DNA of 48,918 nucleotides from Clostridiaceae bacterium BRH_c20a (GTDB lineage: Bacteria; Bacillota; Peptococcia; Peptococcales; BICA1-8). Positions 1,139-15,792 of the stretch are shown here, in pieces (position 1 is the stretch's first letter; each line of letters begins with the position of its first letter). The position numbers and the translations under genes were made by a program. The DNA lies in assembly GCA_000961765.1 (NCBI GenBank), contig LADT01000072.1:1-48918 (forward strand), read 5' to 3'. The notes below the pieces were generated by a model, which was given only the letters and a program-made list of their open reading frames with translations, did no database searches and was not told the DNA's origin.

Positions 1139-3061
1139 TTGATTAAAAAATTATTCATCACAGAAAAGCCATCTGTGGCTGACAGCTTTGCCGGCGTGTT
1201 AGGTTTAGAAATTTCCCGATCTGATCGGGGGAGGGGCTATGCGGAAAATGATAGGGCTATCATAAGCTGGTGTTTTGGCCATCTTGTGACAATGGCTTAC
1301 CCTGACGCCTACGATCCTGCCTATAAGTCATGGCAGATAGAGCATCTGCCCATTATTCCCAAAGAATATAAATATATGGTCATTGATAATGCAGGCACAA
1401 AAAAACAGTATGATGTGATCAGGCAACTGATGCATCGTAATGATGTGGATATGATTTACTCTTGTACAGATTGCGGGCGCGAAGGTGAGTATATATTTCG
1501 CCTAGTCTATCAACAAAGTGGAACCAATAAACCTGCCAAACGGGTATGGATATCTTCCCAGACTGAAGAAGCCGTGAAAAAGGGAATTGATGAAGCAAAG
1601 GATATTGGTGAGTACGATTCCTTGTCCAAAGCTGCCTATTGCAGGGCTAAAGAGGATTGGCTCTTTGGCATGAATTTCAGCAGAATTTACACCTGTAAGT
1701 ATGGAAAGGCTTTATCAACCCGTTTTAAAGAGGATAAGCGGTCGGTAATTGCCATTGGTCGAGTGATGACCTGTGTCTTAGGCTTAGTAGTGGATCGGGA
1801 ATTGGAAATTAGAAACTTTGTGCCTAAGGTTCATTATGGGGTAACGGCCAGCTTTCTGTCACAAGAGAGCGGTATTGCTTATAAGGGTAGATGGCAGCCC
1901 AAGAAAAAAGAACAAGAGCTATCAGAGGATCAAAGCGAAGAAAAATATCTTAACAAAGAGGATGCCCTTGAGATTATCGAAAAGTTGAAGGGGCGTGAAG
2001 CAATAGTAAAAAAAGTAGAGATAAAGGTAAAGAAAGAACAGCCACCCCTGCTTTTTAATCTTGCAGAATTACAATCGGAAGTCAATAAAAAATTCAAGCT
2101 TCCTGTAGATCGCACCTTAGAAATCGCCCAACAGCTCTACGAGAAAAAGATGATATCTTACCCTAGAACAGACAGTCGGGTATTGTCCACAGATATCCTA
2201 AATGAAATACCTAAAATTTTAAATGGCTTGTACGGTAATTCTGCTCTTAAGGATTTTGTTTTGAGGATTAAGGATTTTGGCAAGCTTGCTATTAATAAAT
2301 CCTCAAAAAGGTTTGTAGATGATAGTAAGGTCACTGACCACTATGCTATCATCCCTACCTATGTAACGGTTGATTTGTCTAAGCTGGATGCAGATAACCG
2401 AAATGTATACAGCTTAATTGTGAAAAGGTTTCTAGCCATTTTTTTCCCGCAAGCTGAGTACAATACTGTGAAGGTAGAGACAGAAATCAAAGGGGAAATC
2501 TTTGTGACTAATTCCAAAACCTTAAAAGAGCCAGGTTGGAAAGAGGTCTATGATGTCACGCCTTCAAAAAGCGAGGAGGAGATTTCCACCTCACCCATTC
2601 ATCTGCTAATTAAAAAAGAAAAGTCCGCTGTAACGGCCTTTGATTTAGAAGAGAAGGAAACAAAGCCACCCTCTCGTTTTTCCGATGCTTCCTTGGTTCT
2701 GACCATGGAAAAAGCGGGAAAGTATATAGAAAACGAAGAGCTCAGAGAACAGATAAAAACATGTGGTATAGGAACTTCAGCCACCCGTTCGGGGATTATT
2801 AAGAAGCTTAAGAGTATTGGCTATATAAGAATTAACCCTAAAACCCAGATTGTTTCACCGGAGCCCAAAGGAGAAGCGATTGTTGGATTTGTTCGCTTGT
2901 CGGCAAAGGAGCTATTGAATCCTATCCTGACTGCCAGTTGGGAAAAGGGCCTGTTCATGATTCAAAATGATGAGATCACAGAGGAAATTTTTGAAGAGAA
3001 GTTGAATAGCTACATCACTCGAACCATTGAAAAGGTTAAGAAGAACAGAACTATAATTTAA
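1139..3061 (+). CDS. topB: DNA topoisomerase III (type IA)
   Basis: The 640-residue protein opens with a Toprim domain (KKLFITEKPSVADSFAGVL; acidic CTDCGREGEYIF around residue 115-126). The catalytic strand-cleaving tyrosine lies in MISYPRTDSRV (Tyr341). Type IA enzymes relax negatively supercoiled DNA and decatenate replication or recombination intermediates through a 5'-phosphotyrosine link. Length is close to E. coli TopB (about 650). No C-terminal zinc-finger repeats are visible. The start is TTG at 1139, chosen because AAAGGAG lies at the right distance upstream and the Toprim begins immediately. The gene is monocistronic as far as can be seen, with mobile-element debris upstream. Confidence 0.95.
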   Translation: MIKKLFITEKPSVADSFAGVLGLEISRSDRGRGYAENDRAIISWCFGHLVTMAYPDAYDPAYKSWQIEHLPIIPKEYKYMVIDNAGTKKQYDVIRQLMHRNDVDMIYSCTDCGREGEYIFRLVYQQSGTNKPAKRVWISSQTEEAVKKGIDEAKDIGEYDSLSKAAYCRAKEDWLFGMNFSRIYTCKYGKALSTRFKEDKRSVIAIGRVMTCVLGLVVDRELEIRNFVPKVHYGVTASFLSQESGIAYKGRWQPKKKEQELSEDQSEEKYLNKEDALEIIEKLKGREAIVKKVEIKVKKEQPPLLFNLAELQSEVNKKFKLPVDRTLEIAQQLYEKKMISYPRTDSRVLSTDILNEIPKILNGLYGNSALKDFVLRIKDFGKLAINKSSKRFVDDSKVTDHYAIIPTYVTVDLSKLDADNRNVYSLIVKRFLAIFFPQAEYNTVKVETEIKGEIFVTNSKTLKEPGWKEVYDVTPSKSEEEISTSPIHLLIKKEKSAVTAFDLEEKETKPPSRFSDASLVLTMEKAGKYIENEELREQIKTCGIGTSATRSGIIKKLKSIGYIRINPKTQIVSPEPKGEAIVGFVRLSAKELLNPILTASWEKGLFMIQNDEITEEIFEEKLNSYITRTIEKVKKNRTII

Positions 3062-8319: not shown

Positions 8320-8345
8320 GTGAAGGAAAGTATATAAATCATAGG

Positions 8346-8421
8346 CGAGGGTGTTGCATATTGGGGTTAGTTGCTCACGAAAAGGAGTTGACTTAGCTCT
8401 GAAATGTCGCCCTCGTTTTAT
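8346..8421 (+). terminator. Large-loop hairpin with T-rich tail after aroF
   Basis: CGAGGG (8346-8351) pairs with CCCTCG (8410-8415) across a roughly 58-base loop, followed by TTTTATTTATTAT. It could be a terminator or the end of a small structured RNA. Confidence 0.5.
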
Positions 8422-8434
8422 TTATTATATTTTA

Positions 8435-8508
8435 TTTCAAAAATTTATTTTATGTAGTATAATTTGTAAAAAAAGTAGTTTATATAAAATAAAGTCAGTT
8501 TATAAACT
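8435..8508 (+). promoter_or_regulatory. Possible promoter and palindrome upstream of the methyltransferase-GH3-GGDEF operon
   Basis: A consensus TATAAT (8458-8463) lies 17 bases after a weak TTTCAA (8435-8440). Downstream is a perfect 12-base palindrome AGTTTATAAACT (8497-8508), preceded by a partial copy AGTTTATATAAA (8477-8488), which could be a repressor site in the leader. Confidence 0.35.
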
Positions 8509-8528: not shown

Positions 8529-9092
8529 ATGTTATTTATAATCATTGGATGTCTAGCGTTTTTATTTTTATATATTTTTGATATTAACAAGGTTAAATTT
8601 ATTCATAAGAATCTTAATATTTGCTTTGCAGTTGGTGTATTACTTTTAGCTTTTTCGACAATAGGGATATTATTTCATGACTCAAAAAGCTTTGAAATAT
8701 ATCTTCCTTTACGGGTGCTTTTCGGTGTGTTGTCAATTATTGCACTAGTTCTTATGCTTCATGCTTTGTTTTATTCTTTACCTTTTAAGGAGACATACAT
8801 CGAAGTAGAAAAGAGAAACAAAGTTATTGATACTGGGATGTATGCTCTCAGCCGTCATCCAGGCGTATTATGGTTTTTCCTTTTTTATTTCTTTCTCTGG
8901 TTGGCTTGGGGTAAAATGATCATAATGTGGGCCGGGATTGTTTGGACCATTATGGATATAATTCACGTTTATGTACAAGATCGATGGCTTTTTCCTAAAG
9001 CCCTAATTGATTATGACAAATATAAGGACAAAGTCCCATTTCTAATACCTAGTATTCGTAGTATTAAACAATTTATGATGACTATTAAATAG
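8529..9092 (+). CDS. ICMT/PEMT-like integral membrane methyltransferase family protein
   Basis: 187 residues, mostly hydrophobic, with about five membrane segments. The C-terminal half carries the family signature: GMYALSRHPGVLWF (residues about 104-117), then a hydrophobic hairpin, then LIDYDKYKDKVPFLIP, matching the RHP and Y-x(3)-V-P elements that bind S-adenosylmethionine in isoprenylcysteine carboxyl methyltransferase and phospholipid methyltransferase relatives. The acceptor is unknown: lipid amine, carboxylate or thiol are all possible. It is the first gene of a tight operon: 6 bases separate it from the GH3-family gene, which in turn overlaps the cyclic-di-GMP gene. ATG 8529 follows a GGGG ribosome site at a reasonable distance. 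Confidence 0.72.
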   Translation: MLFIIIGCLAFLFLYIFDINKVKFIHKNLNICFAVGVLLLAFSTIGILFHDSKSFEIYLPLRVLFGVLSIIALVLMLHALFYSLPFKETYIEVEKRNKVIDTGMYALSRHPGVLWFFLFYFFLWLAWGKMIIMWAGIVWTIMDIIHVYVQDRWLFPKALIDYDKYKDKVPFLIPSIRSIKQFMMTIK

Positions 9093-9098
9093 GAGGCC

Positions 9099-10709
9099 AT
9101 GATGGGTTTAGACCAGAAACTCCGTGAAAAACAATATGATAAAATTTGGCAAGAGTATTGTGGGTTTTTGGATCTTTCAATGCCACAATACATGGATATA
9201 CAAAACCGACTTATGCTCGAACAGATTGAATTATATTCCAATTGTGAACTGGGCAGACGTATTATGAAAGGGCAAAAGCCAACCACAGTTAATGAATACA
9301 GAAAGGTTGTCCCTCTTACCAAATATGAAGATTATGCAGATATTTTATTGCCAAAGGTGGAATCCGCTCTCCCAGGAAAACCTATGGTATGGATTGAAAC
9401 AACTTGGGAAGGTGGTAAAAATCCAGTAAAAGTTGCGCCTTATACCGAGGGTATGATTAATTGTCTCAAGACTTATTGTGTAACAATAATAATTCTTGCT
9501 TCAAGTAATAAAAAAGGTGAGATTGTATTAAGCGGGGGAGAAAATTTTCTCTATGGTATGGCACCGCTTCCTTACCTTACTGGATTGGTGCCCCATCTCA
9601 TTTCAAGTAGTATGTCTGTAAACTTCCTGCCAACTATCGAAGAAGCAGAGTCGATGAGCTTCAAACAAAGAAATAAGGTCGGATTTGAGTTGGGAATACA
9701 AAAGGGCATAGATCTATTTTTTGGTCTTAGCAGTATAATTGTGAAAATGGGTGATTCCTTTGCAGCGGGCAGTAGCTCTGGCAAAGACTTTTCAGTTCTA
9801 AAAAATTCTCCCAAAATGAATTACCGTTTATTAAAGGCATGGATTAAAAGAAAAGAAGATAATAATCCAATACTGCCAAAGGATATCTGGAAACTTAAAG
9901 GTTTAGTTTGCTCTGGAACAGATAGTGCAACTTTAAAAAAGAAAATGGAATATTATTGGGGAGTTAAGCCGCTGGAGATTTTTGGCGGTACCGAACCCAC
10001 TTGCATTGCCACTGAAACATGGAACAAGAACGGCTTGGTCCTCTTTCCTGACATTTGCTTCTATGAGTTTATTCCAAAGTCAGAGATGGAGAAAAATCTG
10101 GAGGATCCCCTGTATGTTCCCAAAACATACCTATTAAATGAACTGTTAACTGGGATTGAATATGAATTGGTGATTTCAAATTTCAAAGGAGGAGCTTTTG
10201 CCCGCTATAGGACAGGTGATATGTTTAAGTGTCTGTCCTTGAATGATGAGGAAGATAATATTCAACTTCCGCAGTTTGTATATGTTGATCGTGATCCAAG
10301 ATTTATAGACATAGCTGGATTCACTCGCATTTCAGAAGTTACAATTTGCCAGGCTATTGAGCTTTCGAAGCTAGATGTAACAGAATGGTTTGCTGTGAAG
10401 GAATTTGATGGGCTCAAGAGGTCCTTATTACATCTTTATGTTGAAGTGGGGTCAGAGGGTATCCGTGGTCCTATGACAAAAGATATAATCAAAGAGCATC
10501 TTTCAATTTATTTTCGTTATGTTGATACAGACTTCAGCAATTTAAAATCGCTGTTGGGAATTGATCCTCTTAAGGTAACTATTATCCCAACGGGGACTAT
10601 TAGTCAATTTTATACAGCCTTTGGAAGAAGGCTTAGAAAGATGAATCCGTCTCATTTTGATCTTATAGAAGTTTTGAAAATAGCGCAGGGTGGAAACGAG
10701 GTGTTCTAA
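9099..10709 (+). CDS. GH3-family adenylate-forming enzyme (acyl-acid amido synthetase-like)
   Basis: 536 residues resembling the GH3 family, best known from plants, where the enzymes adenylate a carboxylic acid (auxin, jasmonate) and couple it to an amino acid. Supporting features are the N-terminal pattern around TVNEYRKVVPLTKYEDY, the nucleotide-binding LEIFGGTEPTCIATETW (about residues 295-311) and FARYRTGDMFKC (about 366-377), and the C-terminal PLKVTIIPTGTISQFY. The first phosphate-binding loop reads ETTWEGGKNPVKVAPYT (about residue 105), unlike the usual serine/threonine-glycine-rich loop, so activity may be altered. ATG 9099 follows AGGAGG. It lies between a membrane methyltransferase and a cyclic-di-GMP protein and overlaps the latter by one base (TAATG). 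The substrate is unknown. Confidence 0.8.
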   Translation: MMGLDQKLREKQYDKIWQEYCGFLDLSMPQYMDIQNRLMLEQIELYSNCELGRRIMKGQKPTTVNEYRKVVPLTKYEDYADILLPKVESALPGKPMVWIETTWEGGKNPVKVAPYTEGMINCLKTYCVTIIILASSNKKGEIVLSGGENFLYGMAPLPYLTGLVPHLISSSMSVNFLPTIEEAESMSFKQRNKVGFELGIQKGIDLFFGLSSIIVKMGDSFAAGSSSGKDFSVLKNSPKMNYRLLKAWIKRKEDNNPILPKDIWKLKGLVCSGTDSATLKKKMEYYWGVKPLEIFGGTEPTCIATETWNKNGLVLFPDICFYEFIPKSEMEKNLEDPLYVPKTYLLNELLTGIEYELVISNFKGGAFARYRTGDMFKCLSLNDEEDNIQLPQFVYVDRDPRFIDIAGFTRISEVTICQAIELSKLDVTEWFAVKEFDGLKRSLLHLYVEVGSEGIRGPMTKDIIKEHLSIYFRYVDTDFSNLKSLLGIDPLKVTIIPTGTISQFYTAFGRRLRKMNPSHFDLIEVLKIAQGGNEVF

Positions 10710-13267
10710 TGCCTTTTTCGCAAATAATTTTCTGGTTAGTTCCAATAGTAGCATTGATAACCTATTGTTTGCTAATGCTCTTTTTTATGATATCTCAAAA
10801 GGACAAATTGATTAGGATGTTTATGTTAGTTTTAGCTGCATTGATCCTTTGGACTGCATCGGGATTATTTATGAAAATGGAGTTGTCTCCTGGGGTACTC
10901 TTTTGGAATAGGTTAATGGTTGCAGGAACAATTGCTGTCCCATTTCTGCTTTATTGTTTTGTTTCCGTCTTTACAAATTCTCTCAAGGTTTTAAATACAA
11001 TTATCTGGGGATTAATAGCGGTTGCAAGTCTTATAGTAAACTTAATGGGTTTTGTGGTAACTGAAGCTAATATAATTACTAATCCAGTTTTGATAAATGG
11101 GCAACAGTTTAATTTTGTTGAATTACACTATTCCCTAGGATTAATGGCTTATCCAATATTTTTTCTGATGTTTACGATAATTTTTGCGATTTTATTAAAA
11201 ACAAGGAAAGCTGTAAATAGAGGGGACGCTGCATATGGACGAATCGGCCTTATTACTACTGGGGTAGTAATAATGTTCATAGGCTCGCTTTTAAATGTAT
11301 TTCCAGCTATAGGTAAATACCCAGTAGACATACTTGCGTGTTTTATTAATGCAATTCTAATTACAATAGCAATTTACAAATATCGCATGCTGGAATTACG
11401 TTTTATGTTAACAAAGGGTATTGTCTATGGGGGAGTAGTCCTGTTTATTACAGGTTTTTATGTCTACGTTGTTTTTGCTGCTCAACAACAAATGAGTAAT
11501 TACAATATAGTTCCATATTTTACAGTTTTATTAGCTCTTATTGTAGCAGTTGTTTTTCAGCCATTGTATAGGTCTGCAGGTAAACTAGTTGATAAAATGT
11601 TTTATAAGGCTGAGTATTCCCAACGTCAGGCGCTAAGGAACTTCAGTGCTAGTATTTCCAATAATTTAGATTTAAAAGAAATAGCTCAAGAATTAATTGA
11701 AGCGATTCAGCTTGCTATTCCAACAAAAAATATATTTATTTTAATAAAGCATGAGGAGAAGGAACATTATTATGTGTTTTGCTCAGCATCTAAATTACAT
11801 AAGTCGGACTTTAAAATTTCTTTGGATAATCCTATTGCCAAATGGTTCATAAGTAACAACGTAAGTCTCTCACGTACGGAATTATATTCTCAGCCTCTTT
11901 TTAAATCAATGTGGGAAACAGAAAAAAAAGATATTAACGATTTGGGTATTGAAGTTATTACACCTATTAGGAGCAGAAATGATTTAATTGGTATGATCAT
12001 GCTAACAAATAAGAAAAATAATACTGCATACTTGCCGGATGATTTGGATTTACTTACTTATCTAGGGACATCAAGTGCCGTTGCTATTGACAATGCTAGA
12101 CTTTTTGCCCGTGCCCAATTAGAGTCAATTACTGACAGCCTTACAAAGTTATACAACCATGGATATTTCTGCAAAACACTGTCGGAGCAGTTGGAGAAAG
12201 TTGGTTATGCGGAGCTGTCCCTGCTTATGATTGACTTAGATTTATTTAAGCTATACAACGATTTATACGGTCATTTTGAAGGAGATAAGGCACTAAAAAC
12301 CGTTGCCTCAATTATCAAGAAAACTGTTGGAGATAAGGGCATTATTAGCCGCTATGGTGGTGAAGAATTTACCATATTGTTGCCTTATTATAATTCAAAA
12401 AGGGCTTTTGAAGTAGCTGAAAAGATAAGACTCGAAATACAGAGTTCTTTCTTTAATTCAACAGATGTTACTCAGCGGTTTTTAACAGCTAGTATTGGTG
12501 TTTGTACCTATCCTCATGCAGCCCCCAATGCTGAGGAACTTTTAAAGCGTGCTGACTGGGCAATGTATAATGCAAAAAACAATGGAAAGAATCAAACTGT
12601 TATTTATACTCCAAATGTTGAATCTTCCAATAATAATATTGATAAGACGGAAGAAAAACCTTATAAACCGGTCTATATTGCTACGGTATATGCTCTGACA
12701 GCAGCTATTGATGCTAAGGATCATTATACCTTCGGTCATTCCCAAAGAGTTGCCGAATATACCGCTATTCTTGCTAATGCAATAGGCCTAGACAAATCAC
12801 ATCTAGAAATAGTTAGAGAGGCAGCTCTTTTGCATGACATAGGCAAGATTGGAATTCCAGAAAATATTCTTACAAAAACCGGGAAGCTTACCAGTGAAGA
12901 ATATAGCATTGTTAAAGCCCATGTTGAAATGTCTATTACCATTATTAAGCATTTACCCTCTTTAAACCATGTAATACCGGCTGTTATCGGACACCATGAA
13001 AGGTGGGATGGACAAGGCTATCCGCGGGGTCTAAAGGGTGATAATATTCCTTTGTTAGCTAGATGTCTTGCTATAACCGACACTTTTGATGCGATGACCT
13101 CGGACCGTCCATATAGAAAGGGTTTTAGTGTAAAAACAACACTTAATGAGATAAAGAATTGTATTGGAACACAATTTGATCCTGTAATGGCAAATTTATT
13201 TATAAGACTAGTTCTTGAAGGTACCATTGACATAAAACGAACAATAAACAATAGCAAGGCAGTTTGA
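10709..13267 (+). CDS. 7TM-sensor, GAF, GGDEF and HD-GYP cyclic-di-GMP signalling protein
   Basis: 852 residues. In order: about seven to eight N-terminal transmembrane segments (residues 5-300) resembling the 7TM input domain of histidine kinases; a GAF domain (about 310-470); a diguanylate cyclase domain (about 475-635) with intact signature GGEEF (550-554); and an HD-GYP phosphodiesterase domain (about 650-840) with LLHDIGKIGIPE (His709-Asp710) and HHERWDGQGYP. Both the making and breaking domains for cyclic di-GMP look catalytically intact, so net output probably depends on what the membrane and GAF domains sense. The start overlaps the stop of the GH3 gene (TAATG), which implies translational coupling. 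A terminator follows at 13338. Confidence 0.93.
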   Translation: MPFSQIIFWLVPIVALITYCLLMLFFMISQKDKLIRMFMLVLAALILWTASGLFMKMELSPGVLFWNRLMVAGTIAVPFLLYCFVSVFTNSLKVLNTIIWGLIAVASLIVNLMGFVVTEANIITNPVLINGQQFNFVELHYSLGLMAYPIFFLMFTIIFAILLKTRKAVNRGDAAYGRIGLITTGVVIMFIGSLLNVFPAIGKYPVDILACFINAILITIAIYKYRMLELRFMLTKGIVYGGVVLFITGFYVYVVFAAQQQMSNYNIVPYFTVLLALIVAVVFQPLYRSAGKLVDKMFYKAEYSQRQALRNFSASISNNLDLKEIAQELIEAIQLAIPTKNIFILIKHEEKEHYYVFCSASKLHKSDFKISLDNPIAKWFISNNVSLSRTELYSQPLFKSMWETEKKDINDLGIEVITPIRSRNDLIGMIMLTNKKNNTAYLPDDLDLLTYLGTSSAVAIDNARLFARAQLESITDSLTKLYNHGYFCKTLSEQLEKVGYAELSLLMIDLDLFKLYNDLYGHFEGDKALKTVASIIKKTVGDKGIISRYGGEEFTILLPYYNSKRAFEVAEKIRLEIQSSFFNSTDVTQRFLTASIGVCTYPHAAPNAEELLKRADWAMYNAKNNGKNQTVIYTPNVESSNNNIDKTEEKPYKPVYIATVYALTAAIDAKDHYTFGHSQRVAEYTAILANAIGLDKSHLEIVREAALLHDIGKIGIPENILTKTGKLTSEEYSIVKAHVEMSITIIKHLPSLNHVIPAVIGHHERWDGQGYPRGLKGDNIPLLARCLAITDTFDAMTSDRPYRKGFSVKTTLNEIKNCIGTQFDPVMANLFIRLVLEGTIDIKRTINNSKAV

Positions 13268-13337: not shown

Positions 13338-13375
13338 AAAGGACCATTGAGGCGACCGTAATGGTCCTTTTACTA
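13338..13375 (+). terminator. Terminator ending the methyltransferase-GH3-GGDEF operon
   Basis: A perfect 11-base stem AAAGGACCATT / AATGGTCCTTT with an 11-base loop, followed by T-rich sequence. Confidence 0.88.
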
Positions 13376-14317: not shown

Positions 14318-14788
14318 GTGGTGAGATCTATTAATAAAATTAAGAATAAGAATATATTGGGGTTAGCCACTGGTATTTTTTATACATTTACACATAAAAT
14401 CGTAACAGTAATTGCAAATAAAATAAATAAAAATAAAGACAAAAAGAATTCCTTGCTTACAAAGAAAAATAGAGCAACCTGTACCCCGGAATTAGGTCGA
14501 ATTTGTTTGAATGAAGCAACAAATTATTTGAAAGGATATTTAATTTCCCAACTAATAACGAAAACAGGTCGTAAATATGCTCCCTTGAAGGGGGCGGGAA
14601 TAGGGACATTTTATTGGATGGGAACTAACAGACTTACTAAAAGAGCAAACCTATTTATAGGTGGGATAACAGGTGCGATAACAGGGCTGTTTGTAAAACA
14701 TTGTGGGCATGATGAGTTATTTCCCTACGAGGTCCCAAAACCAAATTTTTATTATAAGGTGTTAAGGATTAAAAGAAGAAGTAAATAA
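14318..14788 (+). CDS. Unknown basic protein with a glycine-rich hydrophobic stretch
   Basis: I do not recognise this 156-residue protein. It is lysine-rich, with a weakly hydrophobic N-terminus, a conserved-looking LGRICLNEATNYLKGY (about residues 60-75), and a glycine-patterned hydrophobic region with LKGAGIGTFYWMG and LFIGGITGAITGLF (about 94-125), reminiscent of glycine-zipper membrane segments. The start is uncertain: GTG 14318 and GTG 14321 both lie within an AGGTGGTG string. It is followed after 26 bases by the duplicated helical protein, so the two may be co-transcribed. Confidence 0.5.
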   Translation: MVRSINKIKNKNILGLATGIFYTFTHKIVTVIANKINKNKDKKNSLLTKKNRATCTPELGRICLNEATNYLKGYLISQLITKTGRKYAPLKGAGIGTFYWMGTNRLTKRANLFIGGITGAITGLFVKHCGHDELFPYEVPKPNFYYKVLRIKRRSK

Positions 14789-14814: not shown

Positions 14815-15792
14815 ATGTTCATTAAATTAGGCGCAAAACCGGAAGGAAAACAGTCCATGCTTAATGTTGAAGAAGCCTATTCTTTGTGGGATTTAGCAAC
14901 GGTAAAATATGCAGGAATTGATATGGTACAAATTTGGTATATTTTTGCCCATGACCCGGATCTTAAATTTATTTTAAAAAGATCACTTGATAAACTTAAG
15001 AAACAGGCTAAGGCTTTAGAAAAGGAACTGAAAAAATACTCTATTAATGGGCCAGATCGCCCCCGATCGGATATAAATTCAGCTACTAATTCCGAAATAT
15101 TAACAGATGAAAACTTAGGAAAGTATCTCTTACTAGCTATGCAAGAGGAAATGGAATTATTATTTAAAGCTACTAGAAATGCGACAACTAACGACGCTTT
15201 AAGGGCCTTGTTTATTAAGTTTCTGACTTCGGTAATTGATGATTTAGATAGTTTAATTAAATATTTAAAATTGAAAGGCTGGGTAGGTGTTCCCCCTATA
15301 TACCCAAATATTCCTGTTCAAACACAAGAACAGGCCGATGCAGGGGAAATTTTTCATTTATGGGATCACTTAACTTTTAGATATGACAATATTTATCAAA
15401 CACAATATTGGTATGAACATGCTAAAGACACTGATTTCAAATTATTATTGAAGAAAGGTTTACAGGATAATTTAAAGGTACAAGTGGAACGATTAGAAAA
15501 TGAGCTTAGTAAATTCGGAGTGCCTTTACCTTCTCAACCACCGGCCGTCATAGCTACAACTGGATCGGCAAATCTTGAAGATACTTATATGTATAGAATA
15601 CTCTTTACCGGTATGGTAGGTGCCGCCTGGATGCATGCTTTGGCTTTAAAGCAATGTTTTACTAATGATCGGCTTAGGGGGATTTTTAAGGATTTATTAG
15701 TAGACGAAATAAACATTATTGACAAAATGATCTTATTCGGAAAAGTTAAAGGCTGGTTAGGGGTTGTACCCCAATTTAATCCTATGTTATAA
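14815..15792 (+). CDS. DUF3231-like helical protein with internal duplication
   Basis: 325 residues made of two similar halves. LWDLATVKYAGIDMVQIWY (from residue 24) matches LWDHLTFRYDNIYQTQYWY in the second half; LEKELKKYSINGPDRP matches LENELSKFGVPLPSQPP; and both halves end in GW-x-G (GWVGVPPIYP, GWLGVVPQFNP). The double all-helical layout with a Y/FG-x-PLP-x-RPP-like link is what I recall for DUF3231 proteins, ferritin-like and common in spore-forming Firmicutes; a spore-coat role is inference only. ATG 14815 is preceded by AAGGGGG. It ends at a terminator shared with the convergent antiporter gene. Confidence 0.65.
   Translation: MFIKLGAKPEGKQSMLNVEEAYSLWDLATVKYAGIDMVQIWYIFAHDPDLKFILKRSLDKLKKQAKALEKELKKYSINGPDRPRSDINSATNSEILTDENLGKYLLLAMQEEMELLFKATRNATTNDALRALFIKFLTSVIDDLDSLIKYLKLKGWVGVPPIYPNIPVQTQEQADAGEIFHLWDHLTFRYDNIYQTQYWYEHAKDTDFKLLLKKGLQDNLKVQVERLENELSKFGVPLPSQPPAVIATTGSANLEDTYMYRILFTGMVGAAWMHALALKQCFTNDRLRGIFKDLLVDEINIIDKMILFGKVKGWLGVVPQFNPML

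Follow-up and report, generated by a model that had tools for sequence, protein, structure and literature searches.

The window analyzed here, a stretch of 48,918 nucleotides from Clostridiaceae bacterium BRH_c20a, contains three consecutive genes (the trio) and associated putative transcription signals, which are as follows.

8343..8418, + strand: terminator-like hairpin separating the upstream DAHP synthase gene from the trio (-33.4 kcal/mol, z -5.0)
8436..8463, + strand: weak promoter-like site, TTCAAA-16-TATAAT (10/12 matches)
8529..9092, + strand: gene 1, ICMT/PEMT-like membrane protein of the methyltransferase superfamily (187-aa ORF)
9099..10709, + strand: gene 2, GH3-family adenylate-forming enzyme (536-aa ORF)
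10709..13267, + strand: gene 3, HisKA_7TM-like sensor-GAF-GGEEF-HD-GYP c-di-GMP enzyme (852-aa ORF)
13339..13370, + strand: terminator-like hairpin 3' of gene 3 (12-bp stem, z -4.2)

The tight packing described in an earlier, sequence-only reading of this DNA is confirmed by the ORF coordinates, with 6 nt between genes 1 and 2 and a junction of -1 nt between genes 2 and 3, in the form of a TAATG overlap. An AGGAGG ribosome-binding site can be read directly in the sequence 5' of gene 2. Since significant hairpins are found on both sides, the trio looks like a separate transcription unit. The first of these hairpins is present as a single copy in the genome, which rules out that it is a repeated element. 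The second had been called a strong terminator; although the hairpin is significant, this wording is slightly generous because its tail consists of just 4 T. The promoter-like site is suggestive at most since shuffled sequence gives nearly as many, and we found no Rfam match to an RNA switch at the operon head. Elsewhere in the window, a match to the group II intron RNA RF00029 (43.6 bits, 384-458) lies just 5' of a topoisomerase gene (1139-3061), and a 156-aa ORF (14318-14788) with no match in Pfam or NCBIfam neighbors a gene encoding a DUF3231 protein (14815-15792).

Gene 3 encodes a probable membrane sensor with a predicted c-di-GMP output

In Pfam, gene 3 displays HisKA_7TM, GAF-like, GGDEF, and HD_5/HD (HD-GYP) domains. 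Its N-terminal membrane domain and GAF are homologous to those of HisKA_7TM sensor kinases, but the output is GGDEF-HD-GYP instead of a histidine kinase. The "7TM" label given previously agrees with the domain match but is an understatement, as hydropathy indicates approximately nine membrane segments. Five membrane residues (Y19, M55, P61, F84, and P205) are conserved in the gene 3 family and absent in the related kinases (two kinases compared). As also stated previously, the output domains are intact in the window protein, with RYGGEEF matching the diguanylate cyclase signature GG[DE]EF, and HDIGK and HHERWDGQGYP corresponding to the HD-GYP motifs. With both sets of motifs in place, this protein may both make and hydrolyze c-di-GMP. 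The RxxD product-inhibition site, visible in L038, L040-L042, and L093-L095, is not seen in it.

Within the family, nearly all proteins have intact HD-GYP motifs, the exceptions being L042 (domain absent) and L043 (variant). Thirteen members retain the GG[DE]EF signature (SGEEF in L033), whereas in the others, about half, GGDEF is degenerate and reads SGKEF, NGKEF, SGKVF, or VGDIF. Since HD-GYP is nearly always preserved while GGDEF is so often degenerate, c-di-GMP is predicted to be the constant of the family and its hydrolysis the commoner activity. The proposal that the third protein sets c-di-GMP levels therefore holds for HD-GYP as the conserved output but only for part of the family with regard to GGDEF. 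There are two unusual versions of gene 3. In L042 (8488-10467), the protein stops after a GGDEF domain in which both the signature and RxxD are preserved, giving a version of the sensor limited to synthesis, while in L091 (8378-10914), which belongs to a single-contig genome, the gene is split into two ORFs (84 + 752 aa) by a frameshift or a sequencing error.

Genes 1 and 2 resemble a membrane methyltransferase and acyl acid amido synthetases

Gene 1 had been identified as an ICMT/PEMT-like methyltransferase. For the ICMT part of this assignment, the gene 1 family profile has MaICMT (4a2n) as its best PDB match (E 1.8e-4), and the same structure is the top fold match of the predicted model (prob 0.93), a weak match considering TM 0.49, E 0.6, and pLDDT 72. 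In contrast, gene 1 itself falls short of the PEMT profile (21.7 bits, cut-off 25) and scores 23.9 bits with the ICMT equivalog model (cut-off 160), even if PEMT is the commonest family matched by its relatives (13/18). Like MaICMT, gene 1 is a small multi-pass protein with an RHP motif and a C-terminal Y..Y...P pattern. Unlike MaICMT, it has RHPG, which is invariant in its family, in place of RHPM, and Q-D/E in place of the EE motif. Judged by profiles and a predicted structure, gene 1 belongs weakly, yet consistently, to the PEMT/ICMT fold group. Methylated alkylpyrones are associated with the bpsA-bpsB operon, in which the ICMT-like BpsB probably methylates alkylpyrones.

Gene 2 is a divergent GH3 protein, and the GH3 assignment made earlier held when profiles were used. 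It scores above the cut-off of PF23571 (45.8 vs 23.6 bits) and just under that of PF03321 (22.7 vs 23.6 bits), and these profiles are matched by 17/17 and 15/17 members of its family, respectively. The family profile retrieves plant GH3 crystal structures with E values down to 1e-15; the predicted structure of gene 2 is poor (pLDDT 55). Gene 2 belongs to the same family as the plant acyl acid amido synthetases JAR1, GH3.12, and GH3.15 and keeps two of the three GH3 motifs. These are motif II (YGSSE; GGTE in gene 2), in which T298 and E299 are invariant in the family, and motif III (GLYRYRxGD; GGAFARYRTGD in gene 2), in which G364, G365, R369, Y370, R371, G373, and D374 are invariant. It differs from the plant enzymes by low identity, by its bacterial operon setting, and by motif I, where SSGTSxGxxK is replaced by TTWEGGKNPVK. 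In the trio GH3s, motif I reads TTWEGGxxPxK in a core group and TSG-K/R-x.....K in an outer group (L040-L043), with a hydroxyl residue and the final Lys retained. In OlsH, Ser115 in motif I is essential. A MAFFT alignment that includes the outer group equates this residue with Thr102 of the core group and with a Ser of the outer group, a position that might be one residue off since an HMM alignment to plant GH3 places it one later. With TTWEGG as motif I in the core group, adenylation by gene 2 is not assured.

Since the EE motif of gene 1 and motif I of gene 2 are both altered, the chemistry may differ from that of the characterized families. Gene 1 could be a reductase-like or inactive member of its fold and/or gene 2 a non-adenylating GH3 homolog, with a product other than a methylated amide. 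This would fit with the DUF1295 or Steroid_dh matches of some gene 1 family members and with steroid 5-alpha-reductase being the second structural match of the gene 1 model. However, PEMT and 4a2n remain the leading family and PDB matches for gene 1, and GH3 motifs II and III do not vary, so we consider this reading improbable.

The trio is conserved, and its members co-occur exclusively

We searched for GH3 in the contigs of the genome, 46 genomes of its class, 398 genomes of its phylum, and further groups, and then read the neighborhoods of the loci. The three genes are found in the same order and on the same strand in 24/24 loci spanning gene 1 into gene 3 (the window, L002-L006, L013-L016, L033, L035-L038, L040-L043, and L091-L095), which are distributed in several classes of Bacillota, in many anaerobic, unrelated bacteria. 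Among these, L003 and L004 are near-identical, gene 3 of L004 runs off the contig end, and L005/L034, which are one locus, were counted once. Gene junctions range from -68 to +62 nt. The contig-end loci L007, L017, and L039, together with L046, fit the same pattern, and the only GH3 matches without the trio are two distant partial ones (L044 and L045, 41-44 bits). The sequence-only reading had made its proposal depend on the trio being kept together in relatives, and conservation turned out to be stronger than it claimed.

Co-occurrence is exclusive as well. Among the 398 phylum genomes, the 13 with a GH3 of this subfamily (>100 bits) are the same 13 that have the ICMT subfamily (at least 190 bits), the next-best ICMT profile score being 47.5 bits, and all 13 have the sensor. 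The sensor domain is otherwise found in G023 and in three weaker matches: L076, which is a histidine kinase according to Pfam; L078, which groups with L076 in the tree; and L077, which is broken by a stop. The probability of identical GH3 and ICMT genome sets arising by chance is ~10^-24 assuming independent genomes, which these are not fully since 4/13 share one genus, but even when kinship is allowed for, chance is extremely unlikely.

The trio is inherited as a unit with varied flanks

The pairwise identities of the three trio proteins correlate (r 0.87-0.94), and their trees give the same main clades, except for L006, which is shifted on a long branch in the ICMT tree. The window GH3 is 67% identical to that of G384, from another class, but only ~50% identical to those of several genomes within its order. 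No GH3 of its subfamily is present in four genomes of its own family. The closer relative in another class and the absence within the family point to transfer of the whole cassette, which thus appears to move horizontally. Carriage on a phage or plasmid was considered and rejected, as there was no GH3 match in viral contigs, plasmids, or phages. The genes flanking the trio vary, and apart from one heterogeneous link in three loci, no non-GGDEF family recurs in at least three loci. Taken together, gene order, co-occurrence, co-phylogeny, and varied flanks strongly support the notion that genes 1-3 form a joint functional unit. The opposite possibility, a chance local operon devoid of joint function, has nothing in its favor that we could find, and we reject it as having a negligible probability in view of 24 loci, differing flanks, and exclusive co-occurrence.

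Two genomes encode solo sensors with the TM-GGDEF-HD-GYP architecture (L055 4741-7284 and L056 5744-8287), while both enzymes are missing. These sensors retain all five family-specific membrane residues and nest inside the trio sensor family in the tree, beside L006, with full support, which suggests that the enzymes were lost secondarily. PucR-type regulators and rubrerythrin are encoded near the L055 sensor. Since solo sensors occur without the enzymes, a sensor can function alone, which is compatible with gene 3 reading an unrelated cue and controlling, through c-di-GMP, either the enzymes or the physiology that they serve, in which case they would be an effector arm and not the source of a signal. 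Genomic linkage alone does not give the direction of information flow. However, no c-di-GMP-binding domain is visible in genes 1 or 2 in a domain search, and we regard such an arrangement as distinctly unlikely.

A tentative model for lipid signaling by the trio

Two known systems offer precedents. In Singulisphaera acidiphila, N-acyl-ornithine is the product of the GH3 enzyme OlsH, an example of a bacterial GH3 coupling a fatty acid to an amino acid, and the OlsH operon includes a methyltransferase (PMC12493201). The OlsH/OlsG/OlsI operon resembles the trio in that it combines a GH3-like enzyme with a methyltransferase and starts with the formation of a lipid amide bond, but it has no c-di-GMP sensor, while the trio has no recurring OlsI-like acyltransferase; in addition, OlsG targets the delta-nitrogen of ornithine, whereas gene 1 is an ICMT/PEMT-like membrane protein (PMC12493201). 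In the second system, the gene for the DSF synthase RpfF adjoins that of its receptor RpfR (PMC6361424). The logic is similar to that of the trio, as the gene of a lipid-signal synthase neighbors that of its receptor, a multidomain c-di-GMP enzyme, but the components are different: cis-2 fatty acids are made by RpfF, an enzyme of the crotonase type, and RpfR is a soluble PAS-GGDEF-EAL protein (PMC6361424). Neither a crotonase-type synthase nor a PAS-GGDEF-EAL architecture was found in genes 1-3 by domain search.

Starting from the observed gene content, order, exclusive co-occurrence, co-inheritance, and motif states, we infer the chemistry, substrate, ligand, and signaling direction of the trio by analogy with these systems. 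In our model, 1) gene 2 would activate a carboxylic acid, with a fatty acid as the most likely candidate, and couple this to an amine, for instance an amino acid, 2) gene 1 would act at the membrane and methylate the resulting amphipathic conjugate, perhaps to a carboxyl methyl ester, 3) the membrane domain of gene 3 would bind the methylated product or a cue that depends on it, and 4) gene 3 would then alter c-di-GMP, chiefly through hydrolysis by HD-GYP and, in certain lineages, additionally through an active GGDEF. The trio would thus be a self-contained, horizontally moving cassette for the synthesis of, and response to, a lipid signal. We favor this model because of the co-inheritance of the trio and the analogies with OlsH and RpfF/RpfR, while giving it slightly less than an even chance of being correct. 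The joint role proposed originally stands as far as a functional unit is concerned, and a membrane conjugate sensed by the third protein appears to be the most economical reading. Against the model are the altered GH3 motif I (TTWEGG in the core group), the changed EE motif of gene 1, and the presence of reductases in the ICMT superfamily. Moreover, the same co-occurrence would be expected of a sensor that regulates the enzymes, or of c-di-GMP and the lipid contributing to a single envelope function with no ligand being bound.

The Singulisphaera operon, which makes a membrane lipid, also raises the possibility that genes 1 and 2 produce a bulk methylated amino-lipid, comparable to the OlsH/OlsG trimethyl-ornithine lipid, which would be structural and not a signal, with gene 3 sensing the state of the membrane to switch between sessile and motile modes. 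This would fit with the products of genes 1 and 3 both being located in the membrane. However, gene 2 scores only 11.9 bits with the OlsH lyso-ornithine lipid synthetase model NF052613 (cut-off 620), which is matched by 5/17 members of its family at E <= 0.01; no OlsI-like O-acyltransferase family recurs around the trio loci; and a strict one-to-one tie to a dedicated sensor would be unusual for a bulk lipid pathway. We therefore view such lipid remodeling with feedback as unlikely, while taking it seriously.

No description of this set of genes was found in a literature search that most subscription papers lay outside the reach of, and the trio suggests an undescribed built-in signaling system. 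One form of the signal-cassette model, which we consider somewhat less likely than not, is an undescribed class of lipid autoinducer systems in anaerobic Bacillota, in which GH3 and the methyltransferase would make a methylated acyl-amide, a dedicated membrane receptor would convert it into c-di-GMP hydrolysis or synthesis, and solo receptors could eavesdrop. If the model is true, anaerobic Gram-positive lineages would possess a complete three-gene small-molecule circuit tied to c-di-GMP, roles could be assigned to an uncharacterized bacterial GH3 subfamily, and the trio would offer a way to a new signal molecule. Should the signal idea prove wrong, a lipid-conjugating pair strictly co-inherited with a c-di-GMP sensor still clearly connects lipid chemistry to c-di-GMP in a way that can be tested. 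Several relatives from the same order (L079, L080, L081, and L082; G038:C38, G031:C85, G043:C97, and G036:C155, respectively) show another uncharacterized bacterial setting for GH3 enzymes, in which genes of a different GH3 subfamily form adjacent tandem pairs and neither the ICMT nor the sensor family was matched next to them.
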